A DNA stretch of 56,270 nucleotides from Pseudomonadota bacterium (lineage in GTDB: Bacteria; Desulfobacterota; Desulfuromonadia; Geobacterales; Pseudopelobacteraceae). Positions 996 to 33,646 of this stretch are shown in pieces (positions within the stretch are counted from its first letter, which is position 1; every line of letters starts with the position of its first letter). Below the pieces are notes generated by a model. That model was not told where the DNA came from, did not search any database, and saw nothing but the letters and a program-made list of their open reading frames with translations. The translations under genes and the position numbers were made by a program. Location: assembly GCA_019352135.1 (NCBI GenBank), contig JABBNX010000006.1, forward strand, positions 1 through 56,270, written 5' to 3'.

Positions 996-1013
996 ACTGG
1001 AATAACAATTATT

Positions 1014-2914: not shown

Positions 2915-2917
2915 ATT

Positions 2918-3898: not shown

Positions 3899-5093
3899 GT
3901 ATTTCAACATATCTAGCACACTGTTATTTATTGTTGCTACAATACTTTTTTTAAGATTTTTAATATCCAGAAAATTAATTTTGCATAGTTGGTTTGACCC
4001 GCTCACAATGGCAATTTTTCAAACCACATTTACATTTGTAGCACTCGGCTTCAGAATAATTTCTTGGCCTAGCTGCTTGGCCTTTTTGCTGTTTGTTTTT
4101 GCGATATCATTTTCAAGGCCAAAAACACATGTAACAAATAGAATCCACAATAACAATTGGGAAAAATTCATACCATGGGTTTTGTTTATTTCAATCACTG
4201 CAAATGTAATTCTTCTATCTCAAAAAGGTTTTGTTTTTGCAGGTGACGACCCAAGTACAGCACGACTTACTTTCTACCAGGGATGGGGAATATTTCAAAG
4301 GTTAAACTCTGGGTTCTCTGTCGTATTAGGGGTTTATTGGGCTGTACAGTGCTTAAGAGGGAATGGCCTCAAGATATCAAATATACTGATTCTGTTTTTA
4401 ACCGTATATATGATTCTAACACTCGGATCTAAATCAGGAATATACTTATTACTTACCTCAATAGCAACAGCTTCATACTTTGAAAGGAAAACCTTTAATG
4501 CCAAACAGTTTTCTTTATTAGTCACTTTAACGTTGCTTAGTTCGATAGGAATGTTTTGGTTGTATTATGGCGTTAAATTAATTCCGTATATAGCTCTTAG
4601 AATTATATCATATGCTGATGGTCCGTTTTATTATTTTAAATTATCCAATCATTTTTCAACTCGCGTAGACTACCCATTTCATCAATTATATATGGCTTTA
4701 AGATTAGTTCATGTCCTGCCTGAAATGAGTCTTGGTCCTAGAATTAATTCAGAGTACTTTTCGTATAGCAATGAGCTCGTTGGACCCAATCCTCAAATTT
4801 TTGTTGAGGCGTTAGCTATATTTAGAGATTTCTTTTTCCTTTATTACTTTATAATTGCTGGGTTATTTTTTCTGTTGTTACGTACTCCAAAGGATCCCTA
4901 CAAGTTTGCACTGTTTTGCACCGTTGCAGGTCCATTATTGATCGACTCTCAATATGCATTTTCCAATTTATTTAATGTCGCATTAATATTTGCTGTCCGT
5001 GGTTTTTGTATGACGCTTAGAAAGGTTTGCCTTGTCATTACGTCCCGAGTTGAATTGGTACCACGCACCACGCAGGCGGCGCTTTCCCGTTGA
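3885..5093 (+). CDS. Polytopic membrane protein, candidate O-antigen/EPS polymerase (Wzy-like)
   Basis: A 402-residue protein with about ten hydrophobic stretches spread over its length, the first at residues 8-26. The largest extracytoplasmic loop lies between about 225 and 290. There is no ABC or kinase motif. Wzy polymerases diverge strongly and are recognised by topology and context: one such protein among glycosyltransferases, with WecA, Wza and Wzz homologues downstream, makes polymerase the best reading. It could alternatively be an O-antigen ligase. The last 15 residues are encoded by a short GC-rich tail unlike the AT-rich body of the gene. Translation may start here or at the ATG six bases on. 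Confidence 0.6.
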   Translation: MYMFEYFNISSTLLFIVATILFLRFLISRKLILHSWFDPLTMAIFQTTFTFVALGFRIISWPSCLAFLLFVFAISFSRPKTHVTNRIHNNNWEKFIPWVLFISITANVILLSQKGFVFAGDDPSTARLTFYQGWGIFQRLNSGFSVVLGVYWAVQCLRGNGLKISNILILFLTVYMILTLGSKSGIYLLLTSIATASYFERKTFNAKQFSLLVTLTLLSSIGMFWLYYGVKLIPYIALRIISYADGPFYYFKLSNHFSTRVDYPFHQLYMALRLVHVLPEMSLGPRINSEYFSYSNELVGPNPQIFVEALAIFRDFFFLYYFIIAGLFFLLLRTPKDPYKFALFCTVAGPLLIDSQYAFSNLFNVALIFAVRGFCMTLRKVCLVITSRVELVPRTTQAALSR

Positions 5094-5105
5094 GTGAGTT
5101 TATAT

Positions 5106-6164
5106 ATGATTAGTAAAAAATCATATGCTATATGCTATCTGGGTTTCCATGACCCACGAATTCATATAAGAGGCACTGAAAATGTAATTAAAGTGCAATC
5201 GAGCGCATGTCAGGCAAGAAAATATTATTTATTCCGTAGTAACAAAATTGAATGTTTTAAATGGGGACGATTAATAGCCATTGCGCTCCCGATAAATTAT
5301 TTTATGGGTTTCATGGTGCTGAATAAACTTTTGTGGCGCATTAATAGAAGGCATAAGCCATTAATTGTTCATGCACACAATTATATTCTTGCCACACTTG
5401 TTTTGACTGGTACTCTTGTTTTTACTGTCCATGATAGCCTAACTTATCACAAACAAATGTCAGGCATTAGATTTCTATCCCCATATAAACTCATGGAATT
5501 TTATGTATACCTGCGTGCAAAAAAAATCCATGCAATATCAAATTATACTTGGGGTCAAGCTCCTTTTCATGATCTTTTCAAAAATAAAGTAAATATTATA
5601 TACAATTCAATTGCTAACACACCTAAAGCAACAGCTAAGTGTAATTGTAATCCCTATTTCCTAGTTGTCAGAAGTATTGAAGAACGTGCTAACATTGATT
5701 TGATAATTGATTTTGCTGATTATCTGCAAAAAAATAATCACACCGAAACTGTAATGATAGCCGGCAAAGGCCCTCTTCTTAATTATTATATAAACATCGC
5801 TAATATAAAAAAAATATCTAACATTAACTTTCTAGGCTATGTTTCTGATTCAGTTCTAAATGACCTATATAACTCAGCAAAATGCGTCATAATGCCGGCG
5901 AGTTATGGAGAGGGTTTTGGCTTGCCTTTGATTGAAGCTTATTCTAGGGGTATTCCTGTAGTTGGTTCACGTGTCTGTGCCGTGCCTGAAGTCATATATG
6001 ACAAGCAACATATGTTTGATAATTCAACCCAATCACTTTTAAAAGCAATTAGTACAGCAATTACAGTACCACCAGAGGAACTTAAATCTTATTTTATGAA
6101 AAGATTCGCTGAAGCCATTATAAAACCGCAATATTTTGAATTTTACTTGAAAGTCTTATCTTGA
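5106..6164 (+). CDS. GT4 family glycosyltransferase
   Basis: A 352-residue GT-B glycosyltransferase. The donor domain has the EX7E motif GEGFGLPLIEA at about residue 268, followed by GIPVVGS and VPEVIY; VRSIEERANIDL at about 188 opens the second Rossmann domain. I take ATG 5106, preceded by GAGTGAG, over the GTG at 5094 that abuts the previous stop. Very AT-rich. After it come about 100 bases without a gene, the largest break inside the cluster. Sugar specificity is unknown. Confidence 0.83.
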   Translation: MISKKSYAICYLGFHDPRIHIRGTENVIKVQSSACQARKYYLFRSNKIECFKWGRLIAIALPINYFMGFMVLNKLLWRINRRHKPLIVHAHNYILATLVLTGTLVFTVHDSLTYHKQMSGIRFLSPYKLMEFYVYLRAKKIHAISNYTWGQAPFHDLFKNKVNIIYNSIANTPKATAKCNCNPYFLVVRSIEERANIDLIIDFADYLQKNNHTETVMIAGKGPLLNYYINIANIKKISNINFLGYVSDSVLNDLYNSAKCVIMPASYGEGFGLPLIEAYSRGIPVVGSRVCAVPEVIYDKQHMFDNSTQSLLKAISTAITVPPEELKSYFMKRFAEAIIKPQYFEFYLKVLS

Positions 6165-6268
6165 ATATTCATTTAATCCACCATCGTTTTGATAATAGAT
6201 TTTTACTAACTGTAGGCAAAGTTCCAAAATCCAAATTTAGCAAGTGAAAAAGGCCCCAGGACCAAATA

Positions 6269-6877
6269 ATGAGTTTATTATCTAAATATGGTTTTAGTGG
6301 GATTATTAAATTATTTGCAGTTATAATCTTAACTCGAATAGAGGCAGTATTTCTTTGGAAGTCAAAAGTTCGAATCATAAGGCGTCCTGTATATATTCGG
6401 GGTCAAAAATATATATCTCTAGGAAACGGATTTACGTCCGGCGTTGCTATGCGCCTGGATGCTTTCCCTATTCACGGTAAAGTATGCATTGAAATTGGCG
6501 ATAACGTACAAGTCAATGACTACGTGCATATAGGCGCTATTAACTCAGTAAAAATAGGCAATAATGTGCTTATTGCCAGTAAAGTATTTATTTCTGATCA
6601 TAATCATGGTTTCTATGGCCAAGAAGATCGGCACGACAGTCCTCTGTCAATTCCTAAAGATCGTGAACTTTCATACTCATCCGTTATAATTGAAGATAAC
6701 GTGTGGTTAGGTGAATTTGTTGCTGTACTACCAGGGGTCATCATAGGAAAAGGATCAATAATTGGCAGTATGTCAGTTGTCTCAAAGAGCATCCCTCCGT
6801 TCTCAATTGCCGTTGGTTCCCCTGCAAAAGTGATAAAAACATATAATTTCGATATAGCAAAATGGGAATTAATATGA
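6269..6877 (+). CDS. Left-handed beta-helix acyltransferase (hexapeptide repeat)
   Basis: A 202-residue sugar O-acetyltransferase of the LbH/maltose-acetyltransferase type. Hexapeptide repeats run from about residue 50 to 190 (IEIGDNVQVNDYVHIG, VKIGNNVLIA, VIIEDNVWLG and GVIIGKGSIIG). The loop FISDHNHGFY at about 110 carries the expected catalytic histidine, and GSPAKVIK near the end is the standard family closing motif. AGGA lies ahead of the ATG. It probably acetylates a sugar of the polymer or a precursor, modelled on WcaF-type enzymes. The end overlaps the next gene by a few bases. Confidence 0.87.
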   Translation: MSLLSKYGFSGIIKLFAVIILTRIEAVFLWKSKVRIIRRPVYIRGQKYISLGNGFTSGVAMRLDAFPIHGKVCIEIGDNVQVNDYVHIGAINSVKIGNNVLIASKVFISDHNHGFYGQEDRHDSPLSIPKDRELSYSSVIIEDNVWLGEFVAVLPGVIIGKGSIIGSMSVVSKSIPPFSIAVGSPAKVIKTYNFDIAKWELI

Positions 6878-7983
6878 AAAAAATAATTGTTGTATCTGCG
6901 ATCAATTTTTTTGAAGGAGGTCCATTAACAATCCTAAAGGAATGTCTTGAATATTCAGCTGAATATTTGTCACTAGAATACAAAATTATCGCATTAGTAC
7001 ATGATGCAAAATTACTACGTGTTGATAACATTGAATTTATTGAGTACAAAAAATCAAGGAAAAGTTGGTTGCATCGCCTTTATTACGAGTATTGTCATTT
7101 CTTTTTCCTATCAAAGCGGCTAAAGCCCCATCTTTGGCTTTCCTTACACGATATTAGCCCCAATGTAACCGCCGACATACAAGCTGTGTATTGTCATAAT
7201 CCATCACCATTTTATTCATTTTCTTTTCATGCCCTGAAATATAATTACCAAGTTGCTTTGTTTAGCCTATTTTACAAATTTCTTTATCGTATTAATATTC
7301 GTAAGAATGCTTATGTCATAGTGCAGCAAAACTGGATTCGAAATGCTTTTAAAGACATGTATAATATCAAAAATGTGGTCGTATCATATCCAAATTCATC
7401 TAAAACGCTGGAGCCTGAAACTAAGGCGAAAAATGGTTCAAATAACATATTTCTCTATCCCGCTTTTCCTCGCGTGTTTAAAAATTTTGAAGTTGTCGCC
7501 GAAGCTGCTAAGATTTTGCATGATAATGGTTTTAATAACTTTAAAGTATTGATCACAATTAGAGGTGTGGAAAATAAGTTCGCTCGTTACATTGCCGATA
7601 AATATAAAGATGTGCCAACAATCTCTTTTATTGGGCTTAAATCAAAAGAGGAAATCAACACTTTATACCAGCAGGTTAGCTGTCTTATTTTTCCTTCAAA
7701 ACTTGAAACATGGGGGTTGCCTGTAACAGAAGCAAAACAATTTAATTTACCCATAATTCTTGCAGACCTACCATACGCACACGAGACAGTTGGTACATAT
7801 GATAAAGTAAAATTTTTCTGTCCCGATAATTGCGAGCAATTGGCTAAATACATGAGGTCATTTTTAGATGGTACATTGGCGTTTGATGGCAATCAGGCCG
7901 AAAATGTTCAGGAGCCTTTTGTACAAAGCTGGGATGAACTTTTTGACGTACTATTAAGTTCAGGTGTAAAGTCAAATGCTTGA
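6874..7983 (+). CDS. GT4-like glycosyltransferase
   Basis: A protein of about 369 residues that starts MKKIIVVSAINFFEGGPLTI; the glycine pair is the usual N-domain loop. The donor domain has an EX7E motif of the form LETWGLPVTEA at about residue 282, then LPIILADLPYAHETVG. I choose ATG 6874 over the in-frame ATG at 6862 because it gives the canonical N-terminus and a four-base ATGA overlap with the acyltransferase gene. It is AT-rich like its neighbours. The end overlaps the following GT2 gene by 8 bases. Confidence 0.82.
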   Translation: MKKIIVVSAINFFEGGPLTILKECLEYSAEYLSLEYKIIALVHDAKLLRVDNIEFIEYKKSRKSWLHRLYYEYCHFFFLSKRLKPHLWLSLHDISPNVTADIQAVYCHNPSPFYSFSFHALKYNYQVALFSLFYKFLYRINIRKNAYVIVQQNWIRNAFKDMYNIKNVVVSYPNSSKTLEPETKAKNGSNNIFLYPAFPRVFKNFEVVAEAAKILHDNGFNNFKVLITIRGVENKFARYIADKYKDVPTISFIGLKSKEEINTLYQQVSCLIFPSKLETWGLPVTEAKQFNLPIILADLPYAHETVGTYDKVKFFCPDNCEQLAKYMRSFLDGTLAFDGNQAENVQEPFVQSWDELFDVLLSSGVKSNA

Positions 7984-8758
7984 TTGCACCGCATCAGTTG
8001 TAATTTATAATAACCCACCTGATATGATCAGAAATGCAATTATGAGTTTTCTATCTTGCTCGCTGGATTGTGAGCTCTATGTTATAGACAATTCCCCAAC
8101 AGACTCTTTAAAAACATTACTTGCTGATTTACCTGTTAAATATCATTTTTATGGATCAAATGCAGGTTATGGCAGCGGCCATGACCTGGCCATAAGTAAA
8201 GAACTTAACAGTCGCTATCATGTAATTAGCAACCCAGATATAATTATCTCCCCTTCCACCATAGTAACTTTATGCTCCTTCATGGCTGAGCATCCGGACA
8301 TCGGTATGGTCTGTCCCAAAATATTGAATGAAGACGGGACAATTCAGTGTTTAAACAAACGCTATCCCACCGTATTTGACCTTTTTGCTCGTCGGTTTAT
8401 TCCCAAGTCACTGCATTACCTTATTCAAACCAGGTTGGATCGCTACGAGATGAAAGACGTCGGCTATGAAGATATTTGTGATGTAGAGTGCATTTCCGGG
8501 TGCTTTATGTTTTGCCGCACCGAAGTACTAAAAGACGTTGGCGGGTTTGACGACCGCTATTTCATGTATTTCGAGGACTTTGATTTAAGCAGAAAGATCC
8601 AATTAGCCGGTTACCGAACAGTCTATTACCCACATGCTTCTGTAACCCACTTATGGGAACGCGCATCACATAAAAGCCTGAAAATGACATGGGTGCATGT
8701 ACAAAGTGCAATAAAATACTTCAATAAATGGGGCTGGAAATTCTTATGTACCCATTAG
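7976..8758 (+). CDS. GT2 rhamnosyltransferase-like glycosyltransferase (WbbL type)
   Basis: A 260-residue GT2 enzyme. The N-terminus TASVVIYNNPPDMI leads to VIDNSPTD, then GSNAGYGSGHD at about 62 and VISNPDI, which holds the metal-binding aspartate. The segment ECISGCFMFCRTEV with GGFDDRYFMYFEDFDLSRK at about 185 is the family acceptor/base region. This pattern matches rhamnosyl- or fucosyltransferases adding the second sugar onto lipid-linked GlcNAc, which fits the WecA homologue that starts inside its 3' end. The substrate is inferred from family resemblance only. Confidence 0.84.
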   Translation: MLDCTASVVIYNNPPDMIRNAIMSFLSCSLDCELYVIDNSPTDSLKTLLADLPVKYHFYGSNAGYGSGHDLAISKELNSRYHVISNPDIIISPSTIVTLCSFMAEHPDIGMVCPKILNEDGTIQCLNKRYPTVFDLFARRFIPKSLHYLIQTRLDRYEMKDVGYEDICDVECISGCFMFCRTEVLKDVGGFDDRYFMYFEDFDLSRKIQLAGYRTVYYPHASVTHLWERASHKSLKMTWVHVQSAIKYFNKWGWKFLCTH

Positions 8759-10413
8759 ATTTATTCTACATATTTTTAACCTCACTTATGACCTCCCTGG
8801 TCATGGTCCCACCTATTTCAAAACTGGCTGTGAAAATCGGCGGCATCGACAAACCGGACGAACGGAAGGTTCATTGCACTGAAACTCCCCGCCTGGGTGG
8901 AATCGCCATCTTCAGTGCCTTTCTCTTTTCGGTCCTGTTTTTTGTCGACATTGACCGCCAAATTAAAGCCTTTCTTGCTGGATCGGTAGTTATTTTTCTA
9001 ACCGGCCTAGCCGATGACCTGACCGGTTTGAGTCCCCGGAACAAACTGATTGGTGAGATTTTTGCTGCCACAGTGGCAATCGTCTCCGGCGGCATTAGTA
9101 TGACGACGCTGGGATATCCGCTTGGACTTGGCGAGATTCAGTTGGGACTTTGTGCCATTCCGTTTACTATTTTTGCCGTTGTGGGAGTCATGAACGCCAT
9201 CAATCTCATTGATGGCCTTGATGGTTTGGCCGGCGGCACGTCAGCCGTTGCCTGTCTGGCCTTTGGCATACTTTCCTGGCAAGCCGGCAACACCATCTTG
9301 TTGACACTTGTCATTGCGCTCCTGGGGGCGATTGTCGGTTTTTTGCGCTATAACACCTATCCTGCAAAGATTTTCATGGGGGATTCGGGCAGCTTGTTTT
9401 TGGGCTACTGCATGGGGCTCTTTTCGGTTCTGTTGTTAAGGTCGCCAGGGGGGGCTGTCTCCCCGGTAGCCCCGCTTATGATTCTGGGCGTACCTATTCT
9501 GGATACACTTGTTGTTATGTGGAGGCGGAAACTGCATGGTAAGTGTATCTCCAACCCGGATAAAACCCATCTTCACCACCGTTTACTGGATCTTGGCTTT
9601 GGCCACCGTTTTTCTGTGTTGCTTGTCTATGGACTTTCCTATCTTCTTGCTGTAACTGCACTTATGTTGCACGGCACCAGTGATTTAATCCAGGTCGTTG
9701 TCTTGGTACTGTTTTGTATGGGTTTGTATTCCGGACTTTATATATTAACCACTTCTGAAAAAGTCCAACAAACTCATTTTTTAAATAGTTACATAGGAAT
9801 ACGGCATACCGATACCTTTCGATCTTTATTGAAGTACAGTCATTTTCTACTAGTGGTAATAAAATATATACTGTTGTTGATACTCACCCTTGTTATTTTC
9901 GTTAAACCGGAATATCCGACAAATATTGCCTGGGTAAGCTTCATGATCCTGATGTGCCTGTCGGGACTGTTGATGGTCGGAAAAAGATGGAATAATTCTT
10001 TGCTGCAGTCGGTTATTTATTTCAGTGGGCTGATCAGTGTTTTCATTATTGAAAACTATGGTCGCCAGACAGAGTTTGCCGACTTCCATTTGCTCATGAT
10101 CTCTCATGCTTTGTTTATTTGTCTACTTCTCGTAGTCTCTGTCAAGGTCGTTTTGCGCAAACAGGTAAGGCATTTGATATATACCCGCTTCGAGTATCTG
10201 ATCCTGTTTGTTGTGGTTGCCGTACCGTTATTGCCTTCCGAGATTACTGCCCACTTCCATTTGCTGAGCGTTGCTGCCAAATCGGTTATTTTATTTGTAG
10301 CCTACAAAATGATTCTCATGCGACAGGCACATAAAAACCGAAAAATAGTGTTTGCTACCTACATTGCCCTGCTGGCGCTGGTGTTGCGATATGCGCTAAA
10401 AATGCAATTTTGA
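8746..10413 (+). CDS. wecA: Undecaprenyl-phosphate GlcNAc-1-phosphate transferase (WecA/MraY family) with extra C-terminal membrane region
   Basis: A 555-residue polyprenyl-phosphate sugar-1-phosphate transferase that would start the repeat unit on undecaprenyl phosphate in the inner membrane. Diagnostic motifs: DKPDERKVH with PRLGG (about residues 33-50), GLADDLTGL (about 86), NAINLIDGLDGLAGG (about 152), KIFMGDSGSLFLG (about 207) and PDKTHLHHRLLDLGF (about 275). Normal WecA ends near residue 350; here about 200 further residues with six or so hydrophobic segments follow. ATG 8746 is chosen because GGGGCTGGA precedes it, while the earlier in-frame ATG at 8728 has no ribosome-binding site. 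GC content rises here relative to upstream genes. Confidence 0.88.
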   Translation: MYPLDLFYIFLTSLMTSLVMVPPISKLAVKIGGIDKPDERKVHCTETPRLGGIAIFSAFLFSVLFFVDIDRQIKAFLAGSVVIFLTGLADDLTGLSPRNKLIGEIFAATVAIVSGGISMTTLGYPLGLGEIQLGLCAIPFTIFAVVGVMNAINLIDGLDGLAGGTSAVACLAFGILSWQAGNTILLTLVIALLGAIVGFLRYNTYPAKIFMGDSGSLFLGYCMGLFSVLLLRSPGGAVSPVAPLMILGVPILDTLVVMWRRKLHGKCISNPDKTHLHHRLLDLGFGHRFSVLLVYGLSYLLAVTALMLHGTSDLIQVVVLVLFCMGLYSGLYILTTSEKVQQTHFLNSYIGIRHTDTFRSLLKYSHFLLVVIKYILLLILTLVIFVKPEYPTNIAWVSFMILMCLSGLLMVGKRWNNSLLQSVIYFSGLISVFIIENYGRQTEFADFHLLMISHALFICLLLVVSVKVVLRKQVRHLIYTRFEYLILFVVVAVPLLPSEITAHFHLLSVAAKSVILFVAYKMILMRQAHKNRKIVFATYIALLALVLRYALKMQF

Positions 10414-10476
10414 ATTTTGGATTGGAAAGCTGGAAAAGCAATTTAAAGAAAATTTGGATTTAAATTTTAAAGTATT

Positions 10477-10494
10477 TATGAATCAATATTCATA
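10477..10494. repeat. Small inverted repeat in AT-rich intergenic DNA
   Basis: TATGAAT and ATTCATA form 7-base arms around CAAT in the AT-rich gap between the wecA-like and wzi-like genes. It could be a regulator site or part of a promoter. Nothing else in the gap stands out. Confidence 0.35.
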
Positions 10495-10526
10495 ACAATC
10501 GTGTCCAAATTAAAATTTTACTGTTG

Positions 10527-12200
10527 ATGTGGGAATATGTGAAAAAAAATAATTCAGAATTCAGAATTCATTTAGGCCCACTGGGATCAAATTCAAAATT
10601 GGCATCAGCTTTTGCCCTTTTGCTGATACTGTTGTACACCACGCCGCTGTATGCACTTTCCTCAGCCAACATCCCGCTCGACAGCCCTGTTTACTCCTAT
10701 CTGGACAAGCTGGCTGGTTTCGGCCTGATATCGAGCGATATGAAGGGAATCAAGCCATTCAGCAAGGCAGAGGCGGCGCGGCTGCTGCTGGAGGCGGAAA
10801 ATAATCTGGCAGAAAATCCATCTGCTCCCGCCGGGTTTGCTGCTGAATTGATCAGGCGGGTCCGTGAGCTGATTCCGCGTGAGATTTCGCTGCGGGAACA
10901 CCCGGATAAAAAACCACCCCTGCTTGACTATAATCCGGTGTCCTCGCTCCGCTTTCGCTCCGTCTACCTGGATGGAGCTCCCCGTGATTATCACCGCCTC
11001 GTGCATGATCCGGGGAACGATGGCGTCTTCGGCATCGGCTCGGGGCTGCGGCCGAAAAATCCGACGACGGCAACGGTAATGCAGCGGGGCAGTGAAGGGA
11101 CGCCGCTCCTGGAGAACAACAACGGTGTCGTACATGGTGATGGCAGCTCCGCTGAACTCCGCTGGGGTTCGGAATGGTATCTGAGTACCGTTGCCGTCGG
11201 ATTGCTGGAACCATCCGTACTGGCAGACGGCGACGATAATCAGATCCGCCTCAACCGGGGATATGTGAAGCTGGGCGGCGGCGCCCTGGAGCTTGAGGCG
11301 GGCAAGGATGAAAACTGGCTCGGCCTTGGCTACCGTGGCAACATCACGCTGACCAATAATGCGGAGAATTTTACCCAGGTCAAACTTTCCAGCCCCGAGC
11401 CGTTTCGCATCGGCTGGCTCTCCTGGCTGGGGGAGATGAAGTACTCCCTGATCGGATCGCGACTGGACAGAACCGTTACTGACGGAGCGGAGCGGCAGCC
11501 CTGGTTTTATGCCGCCAAGCTGTCGGTCAAGCCAAGCAAAAATCTGGAGATCGGTTTCAATCTGGGGCGGCAGGTGGGTGGACCGGGAGTCAAAAACAGT
11601 ATCAGCGATACACTGCGAGGCCTGGTCGGCGGCACCAGTGCCGATAATTCCAACGGCTTGGCCGGTATTGAAGCACGCTATCGCATGCCATGGCTGCGTA
11701 ATTCCGAATTGTATGGTGAATTTTCCGGCGAGGACACCGCCGCTTTCTGGCCGATCGTGGAGAGCTACGTGGCTGGCCTGTATATCCCGCGCCTGACCGA
11801 TGCCGGCCGCGATGATTTCCGTTTCGAGTTTTTCCAGGGAAACCAGATACTCTACACGAACGGCACCTTCCCGGAGGGATACCTCTACAAGGGAATGCCG
11901 ATCGGGCACTCACAGGGGGGGGCGACACAGGATTTTTTCACCCGCTACAGCCACTGGTTCGGGGTGCGCAACAACCTGGCGCTGGAATATATTTACACCA
12001 ATCGCGGCATGGTAGGACGGGTGCCGGGGCAGGCGATCGAGAGAAAGCATGCCGGGCGCATCTTCTGGTCCCTGCCGCTGTACGGCGAGACGGATGCCCA
12101 GCTCGAATACGGCATCGAGAAGATCAGCAACCTGAACCTGGTGGAAGGTGCGGAACGGACCAATCAGCTGGTGAAGTTTGAGTTGCGCTACCGGTATTGA
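10527..12200 (+). CDS. Wzi-type capsule-assembly outer-membrane protein
   Basis: About 557 residues with an N-terminal hydrophobic segment (about 26-45, ending TTPLYALS) that looks like a signal peptide. The repeat-rich start of the mature protein (YSYLDKLAGFGLI then GIKPFSKAEAARLLLEA) and alternating beta-strand pattern to the C-terminal ELRYRY are typical of the Wzi family, a beta-barrel that helps surface polysaccharide attach to or leave the outer membrane. The start is uncertain: TTG 10524, ATG 10527 and GTG 10539 (preceded by GGGA) are all in frame, and the 5' end contains a low-complexity GAATTCA triplication. It sits between wecA-like and SLBB export genes. Confidence 0.75.
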   Translation: MWEYVKKNNSEFRIHLGPLGSNSKLASAFALLLILLYTTPLYALSSANIPLDSPVYSYLDKLAGFGLISSDMKGIKPFSKAEAARLLLEAENNLAENPSAPAGFAAELIRRVRELIPREISLREHPDKKPPLLDYNPVSSLRFRSVYLDGAPRDYHRLVHDPGNDGVFGIGSGLRPKNPTTATVMQRGSEGTPLLENNNGVVHGDGSSAELRWGSEWYLSTVAVGLLEPSVLADGDDNQIRLNRGYVKLGGGALELEAGKDENWLGLGYRGNITLTNNAENFTQVKLSSPEPFRIGWLSWLGEMKYSLIGSRLDRTVTDGAERQPWFYAAKLSVKPSKNLEIGFNLGRQVGGPGVKNSISDTLRGLVGGTSADNSNGLAGIEARYRMPWLRNSELYGEFSGEDTAAFWPIVESYVAGLYIPRLTDAGRDDFRFEFFQGNQILYTNGTFPEGYLYKGMPIGHSQGGATQDFFTRYSHWFGVRNNLALEYIYTNRGMVGRVPGQAIERKHAGRIFWSLPLYGETDAQLEYGIEKISNLNLVEGAERTNQLVKFELRYRY

Positions 12201-12278
12201 AGGCGATTTTGTATTTTGAATTGAAATGTAGGCGCTGGTGTCATTTGATATTGAACTCCGCAGGGGAGGATATGGCCC

Positions 12279-12307
12279 TTGACGGTGGTACTGTCATCAC
12301 GTAAGAT
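12279..12307 (+). promoter_or_regulatory. Candidate sigma70 promoter for the export genes
   Basis: TTGACG at 12279, a 17-base spacer and TAAGAT at 12302, 44 bases ahead of the ATG of the SLBB gene. It could let the exporter and Wzz genes be transcribed separately from the glycosyltransferase block. Confidence 0.45.
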
Positions 12308-12350
12308 ATCGCGCTGTCATAACGACGCTAATAATAAGGAGTTTTTTGAA

Positions 12351-15260
12351 ATGCGAATCGTTTATCGGATACTTTTCCTCTCACTGCTGGTAATTTCTGT
12401 GGCTGCCGGTGGTGCCTTTGCCGCTGATAGTGACTCTTTGCGTTCGTGGTCGTCTCCCCCTTCACAATCCACGGTTCCGGGCTTTGGAATGAATGCCGGT
12501 CAGGGCACACTTCCCCTGCAGAACAGTGGCAATAGCACCGGTATGCCCTTGACCAAAGATGACCAGATGATCAATGTGCTGGAAGAGCGCGAGCGGCTGA
12601 AAGAGTTGCAACCGCTTTCTGATCAGGATCTGCAGGGAACAAAAGAAGATGAAATGCTGCAGGGGAAAGATTCCACCGTCAAACAGAAATCAAAGAAACC
12701 GACGGTGCTGCTGAAGGGCGAACCGGGGGATGGCCTCGTCAAGTTGAGCTGGACGCTGGCGAATCTGCCTGTCCGCAGCGAAGACCAGCAGCTGCGCTTC
12801 ACGATTCGCTACGGCATTGAGTCGGAGAAACTGAACAAGAGCATAATGGTCGGTCCCGGCACCGATTATGTGCTGCGCGATTTGAAAAACTTCCAGCCGT
12901 ATTTCATCCAGGTGATTGCCCTTGACCGGGACCAGCAGACGCTCTTCAAGTCCGACGAACTGCGGGTGACCGCACTGCCGGCCGAGGACCAGGGGTCGCG
13001 GATTGAACGGTCGTTTTCACGTAAGGCCACCACCCTGCTTGACAAAACAGAACCAAAGCCGCTGGACCGCGATTTGAAACAATTCGGCTATGATTTTTTC
13101 AAGAACAGCCTCCAGTTGACGAGCGCCATCGACGCCATGCCGGCGGGGTCAAATTACCTGCTCGGTCCGGGGGATGTGCTGAACCTTACTGTCTGGGGAG
13201 CAGTCAATTTCCGTTATGAATTGACGGTTGACCGGACCGGCGAACTGACAATCCCCAAGGTCGGGGCGGTGCGGGTATGGGGCCTCCCCTTTGATAAAGC
13301 TCAAGCTGCGGTGAAGGAGGCTATCAGCCGTTATTACCGCAATTTTGAGATGAGCTTGACGCTCGGCAGGTTGCGCAGCATCCAGGTCTATGTGGTGGGT
13401 GAAGTTGAGGCGCCCGGCAATTATCCGGTCAGCTCGCTTGCCACGGTCATCAACGCGCTGGCGGCTGCCGGCGGTCCGTCGCACAACGGGTCGCTGCGGA
13501 AAGTAAAGGTAACGCGCGGCAACCAGACGGTGGCAACGGTCGATCTGTATGACATGCTGCTGTCAGGGGACCGCAACAAGGACGTCCAGCTGCAAAACGG
13601 CGATACGATTTTTGTGCCGGTAATCGGACCGGTCGTGGCGGTGGCCGGCGAGGTGCGCCGCCCCGCAATTTATGAAATGAACGGCCGGACGACTCTCGCG
13701 GATGCTTTGAAAATGGCCGGCGGTGTGGCGGCCAGCGGCTCGCTGGGACGGATCCAGGTTGAACGCCTCGAGAACAACAGTGCCCGTATCGCCCTGGATA
13801 TTGTTCCGAAAGGCGGCACTATGGAGGCCGAACTGGGGAATGTGGAATTGAAGGATCGCGACATGGTGAAGGTGTTTCCGGTGCAGGCGGCGGTGCGGCA
13901 GGTTGTCGTGCTGAAGGGGAACGTCCAGCAGGCGGGGGAGTACCAGTTCCGTCCCGGAATGCGCCTGACCGATCTGATTCCATCGACGCAGGCGTTGTTG
14001 CCCGAGTCTTACCTGGATTCGGTCGAGATTACCCGGCTGTCTCCGCCCGACTATCGGCGGGAGCTGATTACCGTCAGCCTGCGGCGCGCGCTGGACGGCA
14101 ATCAGGCCGACAACCTGCTGTTGCAGGAACAGGATACGGTCAAGGTCTTCGCGCGTGCGGAGATGGAGGAAAAGCCGCGGGTGGCGGTCAACGGCGCTGT
14201 CGTCAATCCGGGCACCTATGATTTTTACCCCGGCATGGCGGTGCGCGATCTGGTGACCGCCGCCGGGAGCGCCAAGCGCAATGCGGTTCTTGATGATGCC
14301 GAGCTGAGCCGGATTGTCATTACCAAAGACAAGGCACAGTCAACCAGGCTGCAGCTGAATCTTGGCAAGGCGTTGGCGGGCGATCCTGCGAACAACCTGC
14401 CGCTGCAGATTGATGACGTGCTGATCGTGCGCGGCGTTGCCGATTGGCAGGATTCGACCGACAAATTTGTGACGCTCAAGGGTGAAGTGCGTTTTCCCGG
14501 TGTCTATTCGCTGGCGCGTGGTGAAAAGCTGAGCTCGGTGATTACCAGGGCAGGCGGCTATACTGACAACGCCTACCTGCGCGGAGCCAAGTTTACGCGG
14601 CGTTCGGTTCAGGAAGCACAGCAGAAACGGATGGATGAGATCGTGCGCAAGTCCGAAAAAGATATTATGCAAAAGCAGGCCGCCCTGGCGTCGGTTTCGT
14701 CATCAAAGGAAGAGCTGGAAGCGACCAAGGCGGCCCTTGACAGCCTGTTGAAGAGTGCGGAGCAGATGAAGGGGCTCAAGGCGGAAGGACGGGTGGTGAT
14801 GCGTCTGTCGCCCGTTGCCGAGTTGAAGAGGACCAGCTATGATCTCGTGCTGGAGGGGGGGGATAAGCTGGAGATTCCGCCGCGTCCCAGTGTGGTGAGT
14901 GTCCTCGGGCAGGTGTATAATCCGACGTCCTTTATCTATCTGCCCGGGCAGGATGTCGACAGCTATCTCCAGAAGGCGGGTGGACCGGACAACGATGCCG
15001 AATCGTCCGAGATGTATATCATCCGGGTGGATGGCACTGTGTTCAGCCGGCAGCAATCATCGTTCGGCATTCACTGGAGCGATGAAGGGCGCAGCTGGAA
15101 TTTCGGCAGCTTCCTGTCGTCCCCTCTTGAGGCGGGCGATACGCTGGTGGTGCCGCAAAAACTGGAGCGGATTTCCTGGATGCGGGAGATCAAGGATATA
15201 ACCCAGATTCTGGCCAACGTCGCTTTGACTGCCGGAACTGTTATGATCGGCCTGAGATAG
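12351..15260 (+). CDS. Large SLBB-domain polysaccharide export protein (Wza-like)
   Basis: A 969-residue secreted protein expected to form the outer-membrane/periplasmic export channel. The start ATG follows TAAGGAG, and the first 24 residues form a signal peptide ending GGAFA. There is no lipobox, unlike Wza. An FN3-like beta domain spans about 118-212. The polysaccharide-export domain starts at about 266 (YLLGPGDVLNLTVWG), and several SLBB repeats follow, each with an NGDTIFVP- or EQDTVKVF-like end. Between the last repeats lies a predicted coiled coil of about 60 residues (about 754-816). The C-terminus is hydrophobic. It is far larger than Wza (about 380 residues). It is followed 8 bases later by the Wzz-like gene. 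Confidence 0.85.
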   Translation: MRIVYRILFLSLLVISVAAGGAFAADSDSLRSWSSPPSQSTVPGFGMNAGQGTLPLQNSGNSTGMPLTKDDQMINVLEERERLKELQPLSDQDLQGTKEDEMLQGKDSTVKQKSKKPTVLLKGEPGDGLVKLSWTLANLPVRSEDQQLRFTIRYGIESEKLNKSIMVGPGTDYVLRDLKNFQPYFIQVIALDRDQQTLFKSDELRVTALPAEDQGSRIERSFSRKATTLLDKTEPKPLDRDLKQFGYDFFKNSLQLTSAIDAMPAGSNYLLGPGDVLNLTVWGAVNFRYELTVDRTGELTIPKVGAVRVWGLPFDKAQAAVKEAISRYYRNFEMSLTLGRLRSIQVYVVGEVEAPGNYPVSSLATVINALAAAGGPSHNGSLRKVKVTRGNQTVATVDLYDMLLSGDRNKDVQLQNGDTIFVPVIGPVVAVAGEVRRPAIYEMNGRTTLADALKMAGGVAASGSLGRIQVERLENNSARIALDIVPKGGTMEAELGNVELKDRDMVKVFPVQAAVRQVVVLKGNVQQAGEYQFRPGMRLTDLIPSTQALLPESYLDSVEITRLSPPDYRRELITVSLRRALDGNQADNLLLQEQDTVKVFARAEMEEKPRVAVNGAVVNPGTYDFYPGMAVRDLVTAAGSAKRNAVLDDAELSRIVITKDKAQSTRLQLNLGKALAGDPANNLPLQIDDVLIVRGVADWQDSTDKFVTLKGEVRFPGVYSLARGEKLSSVITRAGGYTDNAYLRGAKFTRRSVQEAQQKRMDEIVRKSEKDIMQKQAALASVSSSKEELEATKAALDSLLKSAEQMKGLKAEGRVVMRLSPVAELKRTSYDLVLEGGDKLEIPPRPSVVSVLGQVYNPTSFIYLPGQDVDSYLQKAGGPDNDAESSEMYIIRVDGTVFSRQQSSFGIHWSDEGRSWNFGSFLSSPLEAGDTLVVPQKLERISWMREIKDITQILANVALTAGTVMIGLR

Positions 15261-15268
15261 GGGGGGAT

Positions 15269-16504
15269 ATGAGTGAGACCACGGATATTCGCCCGGAATT
15301 AGGAGCTGAAGAAGAGATCAACCTGCTGGAACTACTGCGGGTTATTGTTCGTAACCTGCCGCTGATTGCCAAGATCACCGGAACAGTTGCGTTGCTCTCG
15401 ATTGTGGTGTCGCTGACCATGAAAAACATCTACACCGCCAAAGCGACCCTGCTGCCGCCGCAGAAGGATTCCGGCGGCGGTGCGGCGGCGCTGCTCGCCT
15501 CGATGGGGGGCGGACTGGGCGGACTGGCCGGTCTGGCGGGCGGGTCCGGGGGCGGTTCTGCGGATTTGTACCTCGGAATCCTCAAAAGCCGTACGGTCAC
15601 GGATGCCGTCATCAAACGGCTTAACCTGCAGACGGAGTATAAATCGAAAAATGCCGATGACACCCGTAAAATGTTAGAGGGGCTGGTCAAGTTTCAGGCC
15701 GCCAAGGATGGTATCATCACCATAACCGCCGACGACACGGATCCGGTCAAAGCGGCACTGCTCGCCAATACCTTCGTCGACGAGCTCCAGAATAAAAGCC
15801 TGTCGCTGAACCTCTCCAAGGCCAGCACCGAACGGAGTTTTCTCGAAAAGCGCCTGGTCGTGGTCAAGCAGGACTTGAAAACTGCCGAAGATGAGATGAA
15901 GAGTTTCCAGGAGAAGAACAAGACCATCAAGGCTGACAGCCAGGCCGCGGCCGCCATCGAAGGGATCGCCCGGGTGCGCGCGGAGATGGTCTCCAAAGAG
16001 GTTCAGCTGGCGGCGCTCAGAAACTCCATGACCGATGCAAGCCCCGAGGTCAGCTCCCTGCTGGCGGCAATCGCGGGGTTGCGCAGGCAGCTGAACAGCA
16101 TGAGCGGCACCGGTGTGAGCGGGGTGATCCCGTCGGTCGGCAACGCTCCCACGATCGAGATGGAATATATCCGGCGCCTGCGTGAGCTGAAGACCCAGGA
16201 AGCGCTGTTCGAACAGCTGACCAAGCAGTATGAACTGGCCAAGATCAACGAAGCGCGCGATTCGTCGTCGCTGCAGGTGCTGGATAACGCCGTGGCGCCG
16301 CTGCACAAGAGTAAACCCAAGCGGGCGCTGATCGTGATCCTTGCAACGGTGACGGCATTTTTCTGCTCGATTTTTCTGGTGTTCATCAGGGAATATCTGG
16401 CCAAACTTACTCCGGAAGACAGCGCCATCATGGCCGAGATGAAGGGCACACTGAAGGGGATGCTCCATCTGCGGCGGTCGGGGCGGGGTACCCCTGGGCC
16501 GTGA
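15269..16504 (+). CDS. Wzz-type chain-length determinant protein
   Basis: A 411-residue inner-membrane protein that would set polymer length with the polymerase and exporter. It has the Wzz topology: a short cytoplasmic N-terminus, a first membrane segment at about 31-54, a long periplasmic coiled-coil region at about 180-350, and a second membrane segment at about 355-378 preceded by the proline-containing VAPLHKSKPKRA. A glycine-rich stretch at about 70-95 (ASMGGGLGGLAGLAGG) follows the first segment. There is no C-terminal tyrosine-kinase domain, so regulation by phosphorylation would need a separate kinase. GGGGGG precedes the ATG. Confidence 0.87.
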   Translation: MSETTDIRPELGAEEEINLLELLRVIVRNLPLIAKITGTVALLSIVVSLTMKNIYTAKATLLPPQKDSGGGAAALLASMGGGLGGLAGLAGGSGGGSADLYLGILKSRTVTDAVIKRLNLQTEYKSKNADDTRKMLEGLVKFQAAKDGIITITADDTDPVKAALLANTFVDELQNKSLSLNLSKASTERSFLEKRLVVVKQDLKTAEDEMKSFQEKNKTIKADSQAAAAIEGIARVRAEMVSKEVQLAALRNSMTDASPEVSSLLAAIAGLRRQLNSMSGTGVSGVIPSVGNAPTIEMEYIRRLRELKTQEALFEQLTKQYELAKINEARDSSSLQVLDNAVAPLHKSKPKRALIVILATVTAFFCSIFLVFIREYLAKLTPEDSAIMAEMKGTLKGMLHLRRSGRGTPGP

Positions 16505-30032: not shown

Positions 30033-30147
30033 TATGTATCAACCTCGTATAGATGCATATCGTTCGTGGGTGAGGATAAATAACATATAAGCGAGTAGTG
30101 GCACGCGGCCGTTTCAACATACCTCGTACCGGAAGATGACCGGTTGC

Positions 30148-30969
30148 TTATTGCGTGGACAGCTTGAGATAACAATCCGCTTTGTACAGATTCGCATCGG
30201 CAGCGAGAGGCGAACCGGAATACTCTGCCAGATAGCGATCGAGCAGCTCAAGTGCCGTACGGCAATCATCCTGACGATATGCTTTTACTGCTGACTCAAA
30301 AAGCTTTTGTCCGGCAACGTGGCTGGAGGTTGCAGGAGCGGCAGCAACTGTTTTTGTGTGAACAGCAGCTTGTGCAGCTGCCGGAGCTTTTACGTGTGGG
30401 GCCTCATGCGATGCGCTTCGTTTTGGATGGCCAGTCTTTTTTTTGCCGACATGGTGTGTCCGGGTTTTTTTCGCTTCGGACCTTTTCAAATCTTTCAAAG
30501 AAAGTTCGGCATCCGGATGTGAAACCGGTGAAGCCCCGGCTGATTTCCGGACGTACGGCTGTTCTTCAGTTTTGAGTGGTGCCTTTTTTGTCTCGGTGGC
30601 CACCGGCTTGTGGGAAAGAGCAGTCGCCGGAGTAGTGATACGTTCAGAAGTTTGACCTTCATTTTTTTGAGTTACCGGGACCTTGAGAATCGCTCCGCTA
30701 TAAATCAGGTTCGGATTTTTTATGGAATTGAATAACAGAATCTGGGGATAGTACATCCCGTGGCCGCTGGATGTGCGGGAAATATCGTAAAGTGTGTCGC
30801 CCTTCTTTATTTCGATCTCCCGGACAAGTATGCCATCATGAGAGGGCGCTTTCTTCTGGCTGGAATCCACGTGTTGCGGTACGTACAGAAGGTACTGTTG
30901 GCCCCAGGCCGGCAGTGCCGCACAGAGTATGATGGCGATGACGGTTGTATAACGGGCGCGTGTTCTCAT
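30148..30969 (-). CDS. Secreted LysM protein with TPR-like C-terminus
   Basis: A 273-residue protein with a signal peptide (residues 1-23, ending PAWG). A LysM peptidoglycan-binding domain spans about 50-98 (REIEIKKGDTLYDIS, then ILKVP). A basic, Ala/Lys/His-rich linker (about 100-215) leads to a TPR-like or YbgF-like helical hairpin pair (FESAVKAYRQDDCRTALELL) at about 218-268. It starts one base after the stop of the 870-residue secreted protein, so the two are one unit. Probably a periplasmic protein tethered to the cell wall; function unknown. Confidence 0.82.
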   Translation of the reverse strand: MRTRARYTTVIAIILCAALPAWGQQYLLYVPQHVDSSQKKAPSHDGILVREIEIKKGDTLYDISRTSSGHGMYYPQILLFNSIKNPNLIYSGAILKVPVTQKNEGQTSERITTPATALSHKPVATETKKAPLKTEEQPYVRKSAGASPVSHPDAELSLKDLKRSEAKKTRTHHVGKKKTGHPKRSASHEAPHVKAPAAAQAAVHTKTVAAAPATSSHVAGQKLFESAVKAYRQDDCRTALELLDRYLAEYSGSPLAADANLYKADCYLKLSTQ

Positions 30970-30970
30970 A

Positions 30971-33583
30971 TCAGTACCTGTTCCCCAGTTGGTCTTCGTA
31001 GGTCAGCATGTTTTTGACCTGGAGAGCTGTTCCAACGCCGGTGCCCGGCTTGACCCTGAATGAAACCGTGATGTTCCGTTTTTCGCCGGAACCAAGTTCC
31101 TTGAAGCGCCAGATAACCGTGCCGTTGCTGACTGCCGTTGTGGCAGGGTCGGCGGCCACCAGATCAAGTTGCTCCGGCCAGAGACTCTGCAACTCTACCA
31201 GCCGCGCAATGTTGGAGCCGTTATTGGTAATTGCCAGGTCAAATGAAGCGACGTCACCCGGTTTGAGGCGGCCGTCATGACCTGACATGACCATTTTGAG
31301 AACCGGTCTCGAATAGGTCAGTTGTGTTGACCCTGATGCTGAACGCGTCGCATCCCCTTCTGAAACAAAGGAAACCGTAACAGTCCCACGGCTGCCGTCT
31401 GCTGCAGTGAGTGGCGCTTTGATCTCCACGGCGATAGTGGCTTCTTCACGAGGGGCCAGTGGACCAATCTCGTCGATGGCAGGTTCACCGGCTTCGCGGA
31501 TGCCGTCACGATTTAAATCATTAAAAATAACGACACTCTGAGCAGCGGTAATGACCGAATGTATCTTGAGCTTTTCCCTGATATTGCCGGTGTTGGTGAC
31601 AACAAAGGGGAGGGTGATTGCCTGACCGGGAATCGCTATCAGATTGTTATAGCCGGCGCGAACGGAAATGCCGCGCTGCGTCTCAACAGTGGCCATGTTT
31701 GAAACAAAGGCCGCCGTGGTTTTAAGTGCCGTGTCACTCAACTCGGCACGGATGGCCAGTTCCTGCCCGGCCAAGGAGTCGTCCTTCAGCTGAAAGGTTA
31801 CCGTAAACTCACGGCTCTCTCCGGATTTAATCCGCAAACCGTCGAGTGCCAGGGCAGATTTCATCTCCTGCTTGAATCCGGACGCGGCGTAGTCAACCGG
31901 GTCTAATTGGGGCGGGAAACTGAGGCGGAAGTTCACATCCTCGGCGACGGTTGAACCGACGTTGAGAATTGCTATGTGATACACGAGCTTGTCACCCGGG
32001 AGAGGCCTGGTTCTATCCGTGCGCATGACGGCACGAAGGAGCGGCGCAGAGGCAATCAGCCGGACTTCCCTCGATTGGCTGGCTTCAGGCATCAGGCGCG
32101 AAGCGGCTTTGACCGGGTACGAAATGCGGAGGCCATCAATGCTGGCAGGTGGGATGACAAGGTCGATGATACCTTTGAACGTTTCGCCCGGTGCAAGGGG
32201 AGGTGTGTGACTGATTGCAGCTCTAGGAGCAGAGGCAGCGGCAAAACGGGTTTTGAAGTCAGCAGGGAAAGCCGATTCCAGGTAGAACGAGTCGGTACCG
32301 TTGCCACGGTTAATGACTTCAAACGGAACGGAAGCCGGCCGACCAACGGTAAAGGCATCCGGGTGAGAGGGAATAGTGAATTCGAAGCCGGCAAACTGCG
32401 CAACTTCAAGATGCAATATCTGGGAATTCTCCTGCATGGGCGCTGCGGCTGCCTGAGGAGGTAATACGACGGCAATGCCCAGTTCACGGAGCTTTGCCGC
32501 AGCAGTGACTGCGGCAGCGGACGTAGGGAATTTATCAATGATGGTCTTATACTGGGCAATCGCCTTCTCGCGATATGCCGATTGTTCAGCTTTGGCCTTT
32601 TCTTCAGTGAGCTTCTGTTCTGCCAGGCGGGCTTTTTCGGCCTTGAGTGCCGCAGTGCGTGCTGATTCGGCAGCAGCGGCTGCGCGCGTGGTTTCTTCTG
32701 TCTTGGCAATGGCAAGCCGTTTTTGTTCGGCTTTTTCTGCCGCCGCTTTGCGCTCGTTTTCCGCCTTCTGCGCATTCATGTGCGCCAATTCGGCCTCAGC
32801 CTGTTCGGCACGTTTTTTTTCAGCCTGTATCCGGGCAAGGCGCAGTACTTCGGCTTTTTGTGCGGTGATGCGGGCCGTTTCGGCTGCCGCTTCGGATTGC
32901 AGTGTTTCTTTTGCTTTAGCGGAACGTCGCAGCGCTTCTTCGTTTTTAGCGGCCGCAATCTTCTCTTGTTCTGCGTGTGCTGCTGCAGCGCGAGCCGTTT
33001 CTTTCCGTTGTGCAACGGCTATTTCATCAGCCTTTTTGAGTGCCGCAGTGCGTGCTGATTCGGCGGCTGCCGCAGCCTGTTTCGCTGCTTCGGCTTGTGC
33101 CGCTGCCACCCGCATTTTTTCGGCATTTTCATTCCGGGTAGCCAGGAGGTCAGCCTGTTTAGCTGCAAGCGGTCCGGTCGGCAGTTTTTCGCCTTTATCG
33201 TAGCGTGCCATCAGTGAGAGAAGTTCATCCTCCACGGTATTTTTGAGCGGACTGTCCGGGTATTCTTTGGAAAGCTGGGAAAGATAGCGGGCCGCCTCCT
33301 GCTGGTTGCCAACTTTATAGTAGGAGCGGGAAAGCCAGAAGAGCGTCATATCCTTGAGCGGGGTGTCCGGGTATTTTTTCAATACTTCGTTCAGCTTTTC
33401 GATTGAGGTTGCGTAATCCTTCTGCTGGTAGGCATTAAATCCGGCAATAAAAACCTGAGAATCCTCTGTTTCCTGACAATAGGCGGGAGGCGCAAGCAGA
33501 GATGAAATTATGACGAGGATGACCAGAAGCTGGAGTAGGGTGTAGCGACATAATCTCAATAATATCACGTTAATGGACCTCAT
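30971..33583 (-). CDS. Large secreted TPR / coiled-coil / beta-domain protein, function unknown
   Basis: An 870-residue protein not matched to a named family. It has a signal peptide or anchor (about 10-36, APPAYC, whose Cys could be a weak lipobox), then TPR-like repeats (about 40-135; ending YPDTPLKD and YPDSPLKN), then an Ala/Glu/Lys-rich coiled coil (about 145-345) that contains an internal duplication, a further TPR-like segment (YKTIIDKFPTSAAAV), and from about 390 on at least three beta-sandwich domains of CARDB/DUF11 type (EVINRGNGTDSFY, VVTNTGNIREKL, AITNNGSNIARL). The linked LysM protein suggests an envelope scaffold spanning from peptidoglycan outwards. Confidence 0.75.
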   Translation of the reverse strand: MRSINVILLRLCRYTLLQLLVILVIISSLLAPPAYCQETEDSQVFIAGFNAYQQKDYATSIEKLNEVLKKYPDTPLKDMTLFWLSRSYYKVGNQQEAARYLSQLSKEYPDSPLKNTVEDELLSLMARYDKGEKLPTGPLAAKQADLLATRNENAEKMRVAAAQAEAAKQAAAAAESARTAALKKADEIAVAQRKETARAAAAHAEQEKIAAAKNEEALRRSAKAKETLQSEAAAETARITAQKAEVLRLARIQAEKKRAEQAEAELAHMNAQKAENERKAAAEKAEQKRLAIAKTEETTRAAAAAESARTAALKAEKARLAEQKLTEEKAKAEQSAYREKAIAQYKTIIDKFPTSAAAVTAAAKLRELGIAVVLPPQAAAAPMQENSQILHLEVAQFAGFEFTIPSHPDAFTVGRPASVPFEVINRGNGTDSFYLESAFPADFKTRFAAASAPRAAISHTPPLAPGETFKGIIDLVIPPASIDGLRISYPVKAASRLMPEASQSREVRLIASAPLLRAVMRTDRTRPLPGDKLVYHIAILNVGSTVAEDVNFRLSFPPQLDPVDYAASGFKQEMKSALALDGLRIKSGESREFTVTFQLKDDSLAGQELAIRAELSDTALKTTAAFVSNMATVETQRGISVRAGYNNLIAIPGQAITLPFVVTNTGNIREKLKIHSVITAAQSVVIFNDLNRDGIREAGEPAIDEIGPLAPREEATIAVEIKAPLTAADGSRGTVTVSFVSEGDATRSASGSTQLTYSRPVLKMVMSGHDGRLKPGDVASFDLAITNNGSNIARLVELQSLWPEQLDLVAADPATTAVSNGTVIWRFKELGSGEKRNITVSFRVKPGTGVGTALQVKNMLTYEDQLGNRY
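32643..32671 (-). repeat. Intragenic direct repeat, copy B
   Basis: This 29-base stretch is identical to 33036-33064. Both encode ESARTAALK inside the coiled coil of the 870-residue protein. The 393-base distance is 131 codons exactly, so the reading frame is kept. Confidence 0.9.
33036..33064 (-). repeat. Intragenic direct repeat, copy A
   Basis: Partner of 32643-32671, in the same frame of the same gene. It marks either a past tandem duplication of a coiled-coil unit or ongoing gene conversion. Confidence 0.9.
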
Positions 33584-33646
33584 TTGGCCGGCGGCCCTGC
33601 TGACGGCGCACGGAGAGCAGATAGAGTCTGCAGGTAAAATGCCTCC

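Follow-up and report, generated by a model that had tools for sequence, protein, structure and literature searches.

Periplasmic scaffolds tethered to the cell wall, and the building blocks from which such scaffolds are made, are known. OmpA domains attach to periplasmic peptidoglycan, domain II of TolA is a long Ala/Lys/Glu-rich helix that serves as a spacer, and TsaP offers a parallel for a wall anchor. The Geobacter order has been studied for an envelope that carries electrons to minerals and electrodes; to our knowledge, how the parts of this envelope attach to the wall is little described. Here we analyse two adjacent genes in a 56,270-nucleotide stretch of DNA (positions 1 to 56,270 of contig JABBNX010000006.1, hereafter the window) from a member of this order. 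One encodes a protein with tetratricopeptide repeats (TPRs), a helical spacer and four immunoglobulin-like (Ig-like) domains, hereafter the large protein, and the other encodes a smaller protein with a LysM domain. This two-gene unit, carried by most of the order and by hardly any other member of the class, offers a concrete candidate for a wall scaffold specific to the lineage. Our preferred reading, to which we give an even chance, is that the two proteins form a periplasmic scaffold that docks on peptidoglycan and is specific to the Geobacter order. The two genes are positioned as follows.

30971..33583, minus strand: gene for the large protein, 870 residues (open reading frame list, domain scan, AlphaFold2 model)
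30148..30969, minus strand: gene for the LysM partner, 273 residues, with a signal peptide, a LysM domain, a linker and a short C-terminal TPR

The junction from the large gene to the LysM gene reads TGA-T-ATG, leaving 1 base between stop and ATG, and the N-terminal stretches of both proteins are signal-peptide-like. An earlier note on this DNA had reported open reading frames of 870 and 273 residues one base apart, which our results confirm; both are on the minus strand, a point that it had left unstated. A conserved two-gene unit made of a LysM/TPR partner predicted to be exported and a TPR/helix/multi-Ig protein was likewise recovered. In the relative L035 the large protein was 96% identical. 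Nonsynonymous (dN) and synonymous (dS) substitution rates against L035 were 0.0176 and 0.120 for the large gene (ratio about 0.15) and 0.0569 and 0.1197 for the LysM gene (ratio about 0.48), which evolves faster by this measure. Because dN was below dS, both genes look coding and under selection. A repeat search found no DNA tandem repeats within 30100-33600.

Among 58 relatives, the large protein was matched in 56, in some of them through paralogues only. Across the order, profile A1 of the large protein (E 1e-20) matched 118 of 141 genomes and LysM profile A2 (E 1e-10), with which only the order was searched, matched 111 of 141. Large-protein matches that reached the C-terminus were found in 111 of the 141 genomes, and in 106 of these 111 a LysM match was directly downstream on the same strand. 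The gaps from hit to hit in the 106 paired genomes were mostly 4 bases, and four ranged from 147 to 391. A single base separated stop and ATG in 40 of 50 junctions, a set that includes L065 and L110 (the same locus), the cut locus L040 and three loci of a genus without the partner. Four of the five genomes with the large protein and without its partner belong to that one genus (G039, G042, G052 and G058); the fifth is G100. Checked in six frames, L108, L109, L110, L151 and L139 showed no LysM partner, the weak hit in L139 being the large protein itself. In L075 (10013-13167) the large gene is split into two open reading frames of 448 and 569 residues, which may be a real break or an assembly error.

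The linkage of the two genes was counted on 111 of the 118 large-protein genomes and 108 of the 111 LysM genomes. Dropped from the large-protein set were G027 (contig end) and G002, G034, G043, G092, G103 and G120 (best E 1e-34 to 1e-74, without listed places), and from the LysM set G002, G092 and G103, whose matches to the LysM profile were weak (best E 1e-10 to 1e-16) and are given without their places. The resulting table (106, 5, 2, 28) gave a Fisher p of 3e-22 with phylogeny ignored. Seven LysM hits lay away from the large gene, five as second LysM genes and two at contig ends; the latter are in G025 and G027, the genomes with a LysM match and without a large protein reaching its C-terminus. 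A second Fisher table credits the two broken contigs. With G002, G092 and G103 counted, some match to the LysM profile is seen in 5 of the 30 genomes in which no large protein reaches its C-terminus.

Outside the order, the large protein was matched in 2 of 136 other genomes of the class, weakly in G156 and with the full pair in G271, and was without a match in the remaining 134. In a phylum sample (n=395), the nine large-protein matches were eight from the order and one in G560 that covered only model positions 167-349. Given these counts in order, class and phylum, the pair is an order-level trait and not a strain oddity. The outcome in which it occurs only in this strain, raised in the earlier note, was checked and did not occur, as 106 of the 111 order genomes with a large protein that reaches its C-terminus and 1 of 136 other class genomes carry the pair. 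This recurrence, together with the dN/dS values, indicates that the pairing is not due to chance.

The large protein consists of a signal peptide, two TPRs, a helical spacer, a helical hairpin and four Ig-like domains, arranged as listed.

33476..33583, minus strand: signal peptide, residues ~1-36, with a putative cleavage site (no lipobox pattern, 44 orthologues)
33197..33466, minus strand: N-terminal TPR helices of CpoB/BamD type, residues 40-129 (Pfam, NCBIfam, profile, model)
32576..33157, minus strand: Ala/Glu/Lys/Arg helical spacer with a 10-residue repeat, residues ~143-336 (length differs among species)
32483..32575, minus strand: conserved TPR-like helical hairpin after the spacer, residues ~337-367 (alignment, model)
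32048..32392, minus strand: Ig-like domain 1, residues 398-512 (model, structure search)
31679..32044, minus strand: Ig-like domain 2, residues 514-635 (model; domains 1-2 recur in OmpA-type and 432-residue paralogues)
31313..31669, minus strand: Ig-like domain 3, residues 639-757 (model)
30995..31300, minus strand: Ig-like domain 4 (DUF11), residues 762-863 (Pfam, model)

In the Pfam and NCBIfam scans, TPR_6 scored 41 bits (cut-off 26.3), DUF11 (PF01345) 61.1 bits (cut-off 24.6) and the DUF11-type repeat TIGR01451 28.8 (cut-off 24). The hairpin after the spacer was assigned as TPR by reading of the sequence. The AlphaFold2 model, with a mean predicted local distance difference test (pLDDT) score of 80.9 and a predicted template modelling (pTM) score of 0.44, contained a signal helix, TPR helices at residues 40-129, long helices at 143-351 and four beta domains at about 398-863; since the pTM is low, it does not fix the relative placement of these domains. 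The model and a lipobox scan revealed no membrane anchor, the simple lipobox pattern occurring in 0 of 44 N-termini of the large protein. Its Pfam hits to E 1 did not include the C-terminal wall-binding domain of OmpA.

The N-terminal TPRs gave sub-threshold NCBIfam matches to CpoB and BamD and a profile match to CpoB (PDB 6g5s, E 1.9e-9). Together with a spacer whose composition is similar to that of TolA domain II, they could suggest a Tol-Pal factor, that is, a CpoB relative with a TolA-like helix that coordinates outer-membrane constriction or wall synthesis. The CpoB model TIGR02795 scored 39.3 bits, far under its equivalog cut-off of 90.1, which two other loci of the same genome, C125 and C238, exceed; moreover, reading by eye the first 50 residues of each open reading frame in the window revealed no recognisable tol/pal genes. 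We thus consider this function quite improbable, and a role as CpoB substitute was set aside on the same scores.

The LysM partner contains two recognisable domains besides its signal peptide.

30676..30816, minus strand: LysM domain, residues 52-98 (Pfam, alignment, model)
30154..30333, minus strand: C-terminal TPR hairpin and one extra helix, residues 213-272 (profile match to the N-terminal TPR of the large protein)

The LysM domain (PF01476) scored 35.0 bits (cut-off 20.9) and, going by its family, probably binds peptidoglycan or another glycan containing N-acetylglucosamine. The middle of the protein is a linker that was poorly conserved in alignment A2, which takes in 36 of 48 LysM candidates. 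Similar to the large protein, the LysM proteins were without the simple lipobox pattern (0 of 35 N-terminal stretches, L062 excluded; at L062, positions 416-1125, are open reading frames with a recurring peptide that is possibly a read-through CRISPR array). The AlphaFold2 model (mean pLDDT 67.4, pTM 0.32) showed a fold like that of LysM and then a linker without structure; the C-terminal hairpin with one extra helix was modelled confidently, and there the TPR ends after one and a half repeats. Profile comparison aligned this TPR with the N-terminal TPR of the large protein over 61 columns with 28% identity (E 3e-5, probability 73%).

The LysM and TPR of the partner also recall FimV, as an excerpt of PMC12918733 describes it, and the partner might then, like FimV or TsaP, anchor a trans-envelope machine for secretion or pili to the wall. 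In L107 (3471-6429), a TPR paralogue that is short and stands alone is found beside genes read as GspA- and GspB-like, which fits such a role. However, in the partner LysM comes after a single N-terminal hydrophobic helix, a second long hydrophobic helix was not seen, and the large cytoplasmic part of FimV is missing. Secretin, secretion ATPase and pilin genes were also not recognised by eye beside the pair in the window, and such an anchoring role is very unlikely.

Between its constant ends the large protein varies mainly in its spacer. In alignment A1 (44 of 48 large-protein candidates; L057, L058, L065 and L112 were excluded as very long or because the locus was already represented), the N-terminal TPR stretch (residues 37-131) was 95 residues long in all 44 orthologues and the part after the spacer ranged from 533 to 547 residues. 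The spacers ranged from 112 to 392 residues, and that of L112, outside the alignment, was about 775 residues. Identity autocorrelation of the spacer peaked at lags 10 (0.325), 20 (0.282) and 30 (0.254), compared with 0.136 at lag 7 and 0.176 at lag 11. Relative to shuffles, opposite charges were enriched at i+3 (1.50) and i+4 (1.39) and depleted at i+5 (0.32) in 42 of the 44 rows; L116 and L117, excluded from this count, have a Pro-rich stretch instead (12-13% Pro). These traits would be easier to explain by a charged single helix or tether than by a coiled coil with heptads, and a variable spacer between flanks of fixed length appears more like a tether than a ruler. A ruler of periplasm width was set aside, given spacers of 112 to about 775 residues and their Pro-rich form in L116 and L117.

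These results also refine several terms of the earlier note. Its coiled coil is a loose term for a long helix whose 10-residue repeat argues against a simple heptad (by identity autocorrelation; no coiled-coil predictor was used). Its envelope-spanning scaffold is kept in its second half, the TPR/helix/multi-Ig protein being scaffold-like; the spanning is weakened by the variation in spacer length and the missing anchor and lipobox. The word giant overstates 870 residues. Finally, the scans do not bear out the name CARDB-like: the Pfam hits to E 1 contained DUF11 and no CARDB. A remote relation through the shared Ig-like fold is possible, because HMMER filters drop most weak matches.

In the fold searches the Ig domains matched generic tandem-Ig proteins, with 648 chains at E <= 0.001; among the matches were alpha chains of integrins, basal and shaft pilins of Gram-positive bacteria and RbmA of V. 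cholerae. The fold searches barely covered the TPR and spacer parts, so that the absence of a family from their lists carries no meaning. Such generic matches point to a rod without naming a particular ligand. Surface proteins often contain DUF11 and tandem Ig domains, and the large protein could instead pass the outer membrane and serve as an adhesin or biofilm scaffold, with the LysM protein aiding its passage or retention; the integrin, pilin and RbmA matches agree with this. So does a cluster at 78-16504 of the window, about 14 kb from the pair, that by eye, from first residues, resembles exopolysaccharide synthesis (glycosyltransferases, a sugar-phosphate transferase and a chain-length regulator). 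The generic nature of the matches speaks against a surface location, as does the failure of Pfam, NCBIfam and the model to reveal any sorting signal, anchor or barrel in the large protein.

The paralogues bear on the same question. In the same genome, L098 (contig C99, 10379-12442) encodes a protein of 687 residues with an outer-membrane barrel (54.2 bits, cut-off 28.7), an OmpA domain (82.6 bits, cut-off 27.2) and, C-terminal to the latter, an Ig pair. It aligns with residues 304-643 of the large protein, which cover the Ig pair, at 26% identity (E 1.2e-27). L104 (7065-9062) also encodes an OmpA-family protein with the Ig pair after the OmpA domain, and we know of no such fusion elsewhere. 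Because peptidoglycan binding by the OmpA domain takes place in the periplasm, an Ig pair that follows it should be periplasmic as well. The OmpA-fused paralogue suggests, by analogy, a periplasmic place for the Ig module of the large protein, and a surface role is unlikely. A third protein of the genome, L099, has 432 residues and combines TPR, helix and Ig pair; its relative in L077 adjoins genes read as dnaG and rpoD.

The computed elements of the proposed periplasmic scaffold are N-termini that resemble signal peptides, the domain composition, the linkage of the genes across the order, and constant ends around a variable spacer. Both proteins would be exported by Sec, and the small protein would hold peptidoglycan through its LysM domain, so that wall binding in this pair would be supplied by a separate protein. 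The two related TPRs may form the contact, that at the C-terminus of the partner docking on that at the N-terminus of the large protein. As the partner TPR breaks off after one and a half repeats, the solenoid of the large protein could be completed by the open end of this TPR. The four Ig-like domains, on a spacer of variable length, might then form a binding rod for other envelope proteins, which would thereby be tethered to the wall. The putative TPR-TPR docking is the most interesting and the least proven step. A bolder version, which we find doubtful, is a lineage-defining module in which the truncated TPR of the LysM protein completes the solenoid of the other, wall binding occurs in trans, decad repeats form an expandable tether for the Ig rod, and the Ig pair has been re-mounted on OmpA within one genome. 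If true, these bacteria would possess a modular wall-tether toolkit.

Several points weigh against the periplasmic scaffold. TPRs as a class tend to look alike, and the alignment of these two reached a probability of no more than 73%. The large protein may work by itself or with a different LysM protein, as 5 of the 111 genomes keep it without the partner; in L108 a second LysM gene is close by. Operon-like linkage is no proof of a complex. The argument from the OmpA fusion rests on the usual topology of OmpA. Finally, the neighbourhood names no pathway and points to no cargo.

The nearest neighbours were read by eye from their translations as the housekeeping genes uvrC, amtB, divIVA, yggU and slyD. 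In the loci examined close to the genus of the window, synteny often extends over uvrC, amtB, the pair, divIVA, yggU and slyD, with amtB/uvrC upstream; as these are housekeeping genes, synteny was set aside as a guide to function. In L038 the pair stays together in a different neighbourhood, thus the unit consists of these two genes. A convergent receiver-like gene is found downstream, with or without a second LysM gene, in other genera and in some members of the genus of the window. Both genes were present in L108 (10640-12975), L112, L113 and L114, where the C-terminal part of the receiver-like protein had no Pfam hit; the second LysM gene of L108 is convergent and 129 bases away. Of four proteins from convergent regions searched against Pfam (E 0.01), two had no hit, one had LysM and one a sub-threshold response-regulator match. 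The closest match of the receiver-like protein in the genome of the window is on another contig. In L100 (5003-7909) and L101 (7548-10592), a CxxCH protein of 582 or 587 residues is adjacent to another LysM/TPR protein, whose helix is rich in Lys and Glu.

The earlier note had offered appendages, envelope shape or extracellular electron transfer as the purpose of the pair, links for which the housekeeping neighbours and the 134 class genomes without a match give no support. A scaffold for electron-transfer parts would agree with the near restriction of the pair to an order known for metal reduction. In L109 (2-8983), where the LysM partner is missing, an open reading frame of at least 2994 residues with 36 CxxCH motifs is directly downstream of the large gene, and in L057 CxxCH proteins are downstream of the pair. 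Cytochrome neighbours in single relatives are, however, expected in such genomes. No cytochrome gene was recognised by eye beside the pair in the window and, given also that 134 of 136 other class genomes gave no match to the large protein, we regard this as the least probable account.

In the literature, the parts of PMC3495685 and PMC10580878 that we consulted name, respectively, the TPR-domain proteins GSU2476 and GSU2508, which can be neither matched to the pair nor excluded, and GSU3176, a gene for a lysM-domain effector of type VI secretion. Full-text searches of the open-access literature did not find the pair described, and the composition of these building blocks with its order-wide linkage was not found described either.

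Similar to CpoB/YbgF, whose structure 6g5s was the only PDB relative by profile at E <= 0.001, the large protein is predicted to be exported and combines a helical segment with the same type of TPR. Different from CpoB/YbgF, it has another order of parts, four added Ig domains and a score under the CpoB cut-off. FimV/HubP, according to the same excerpt of PMC12918733, shares LysM and TPR in a single polypeptide with the partner, which is short and without the large cytoplasmic part; a FimV domain was not listed in the general Pfam and NCBIfam scans, none of which was aimed at it. The relation to the OmpA family is through the OmpA-type paralogue of the same genome, which carries the Ig pair of the large protein. 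The large protein itself has neither barrel nor OmpA domain, and its wall binding would come in trans from the LysM protein. Finally, its spacer is like domain II of TolA in being a long helix rich in Ala, Lys and Glu and differs from it in the 10-residue repeat, the opposite charges at i+3/i+4 and the flanking TPR and Ig domains.

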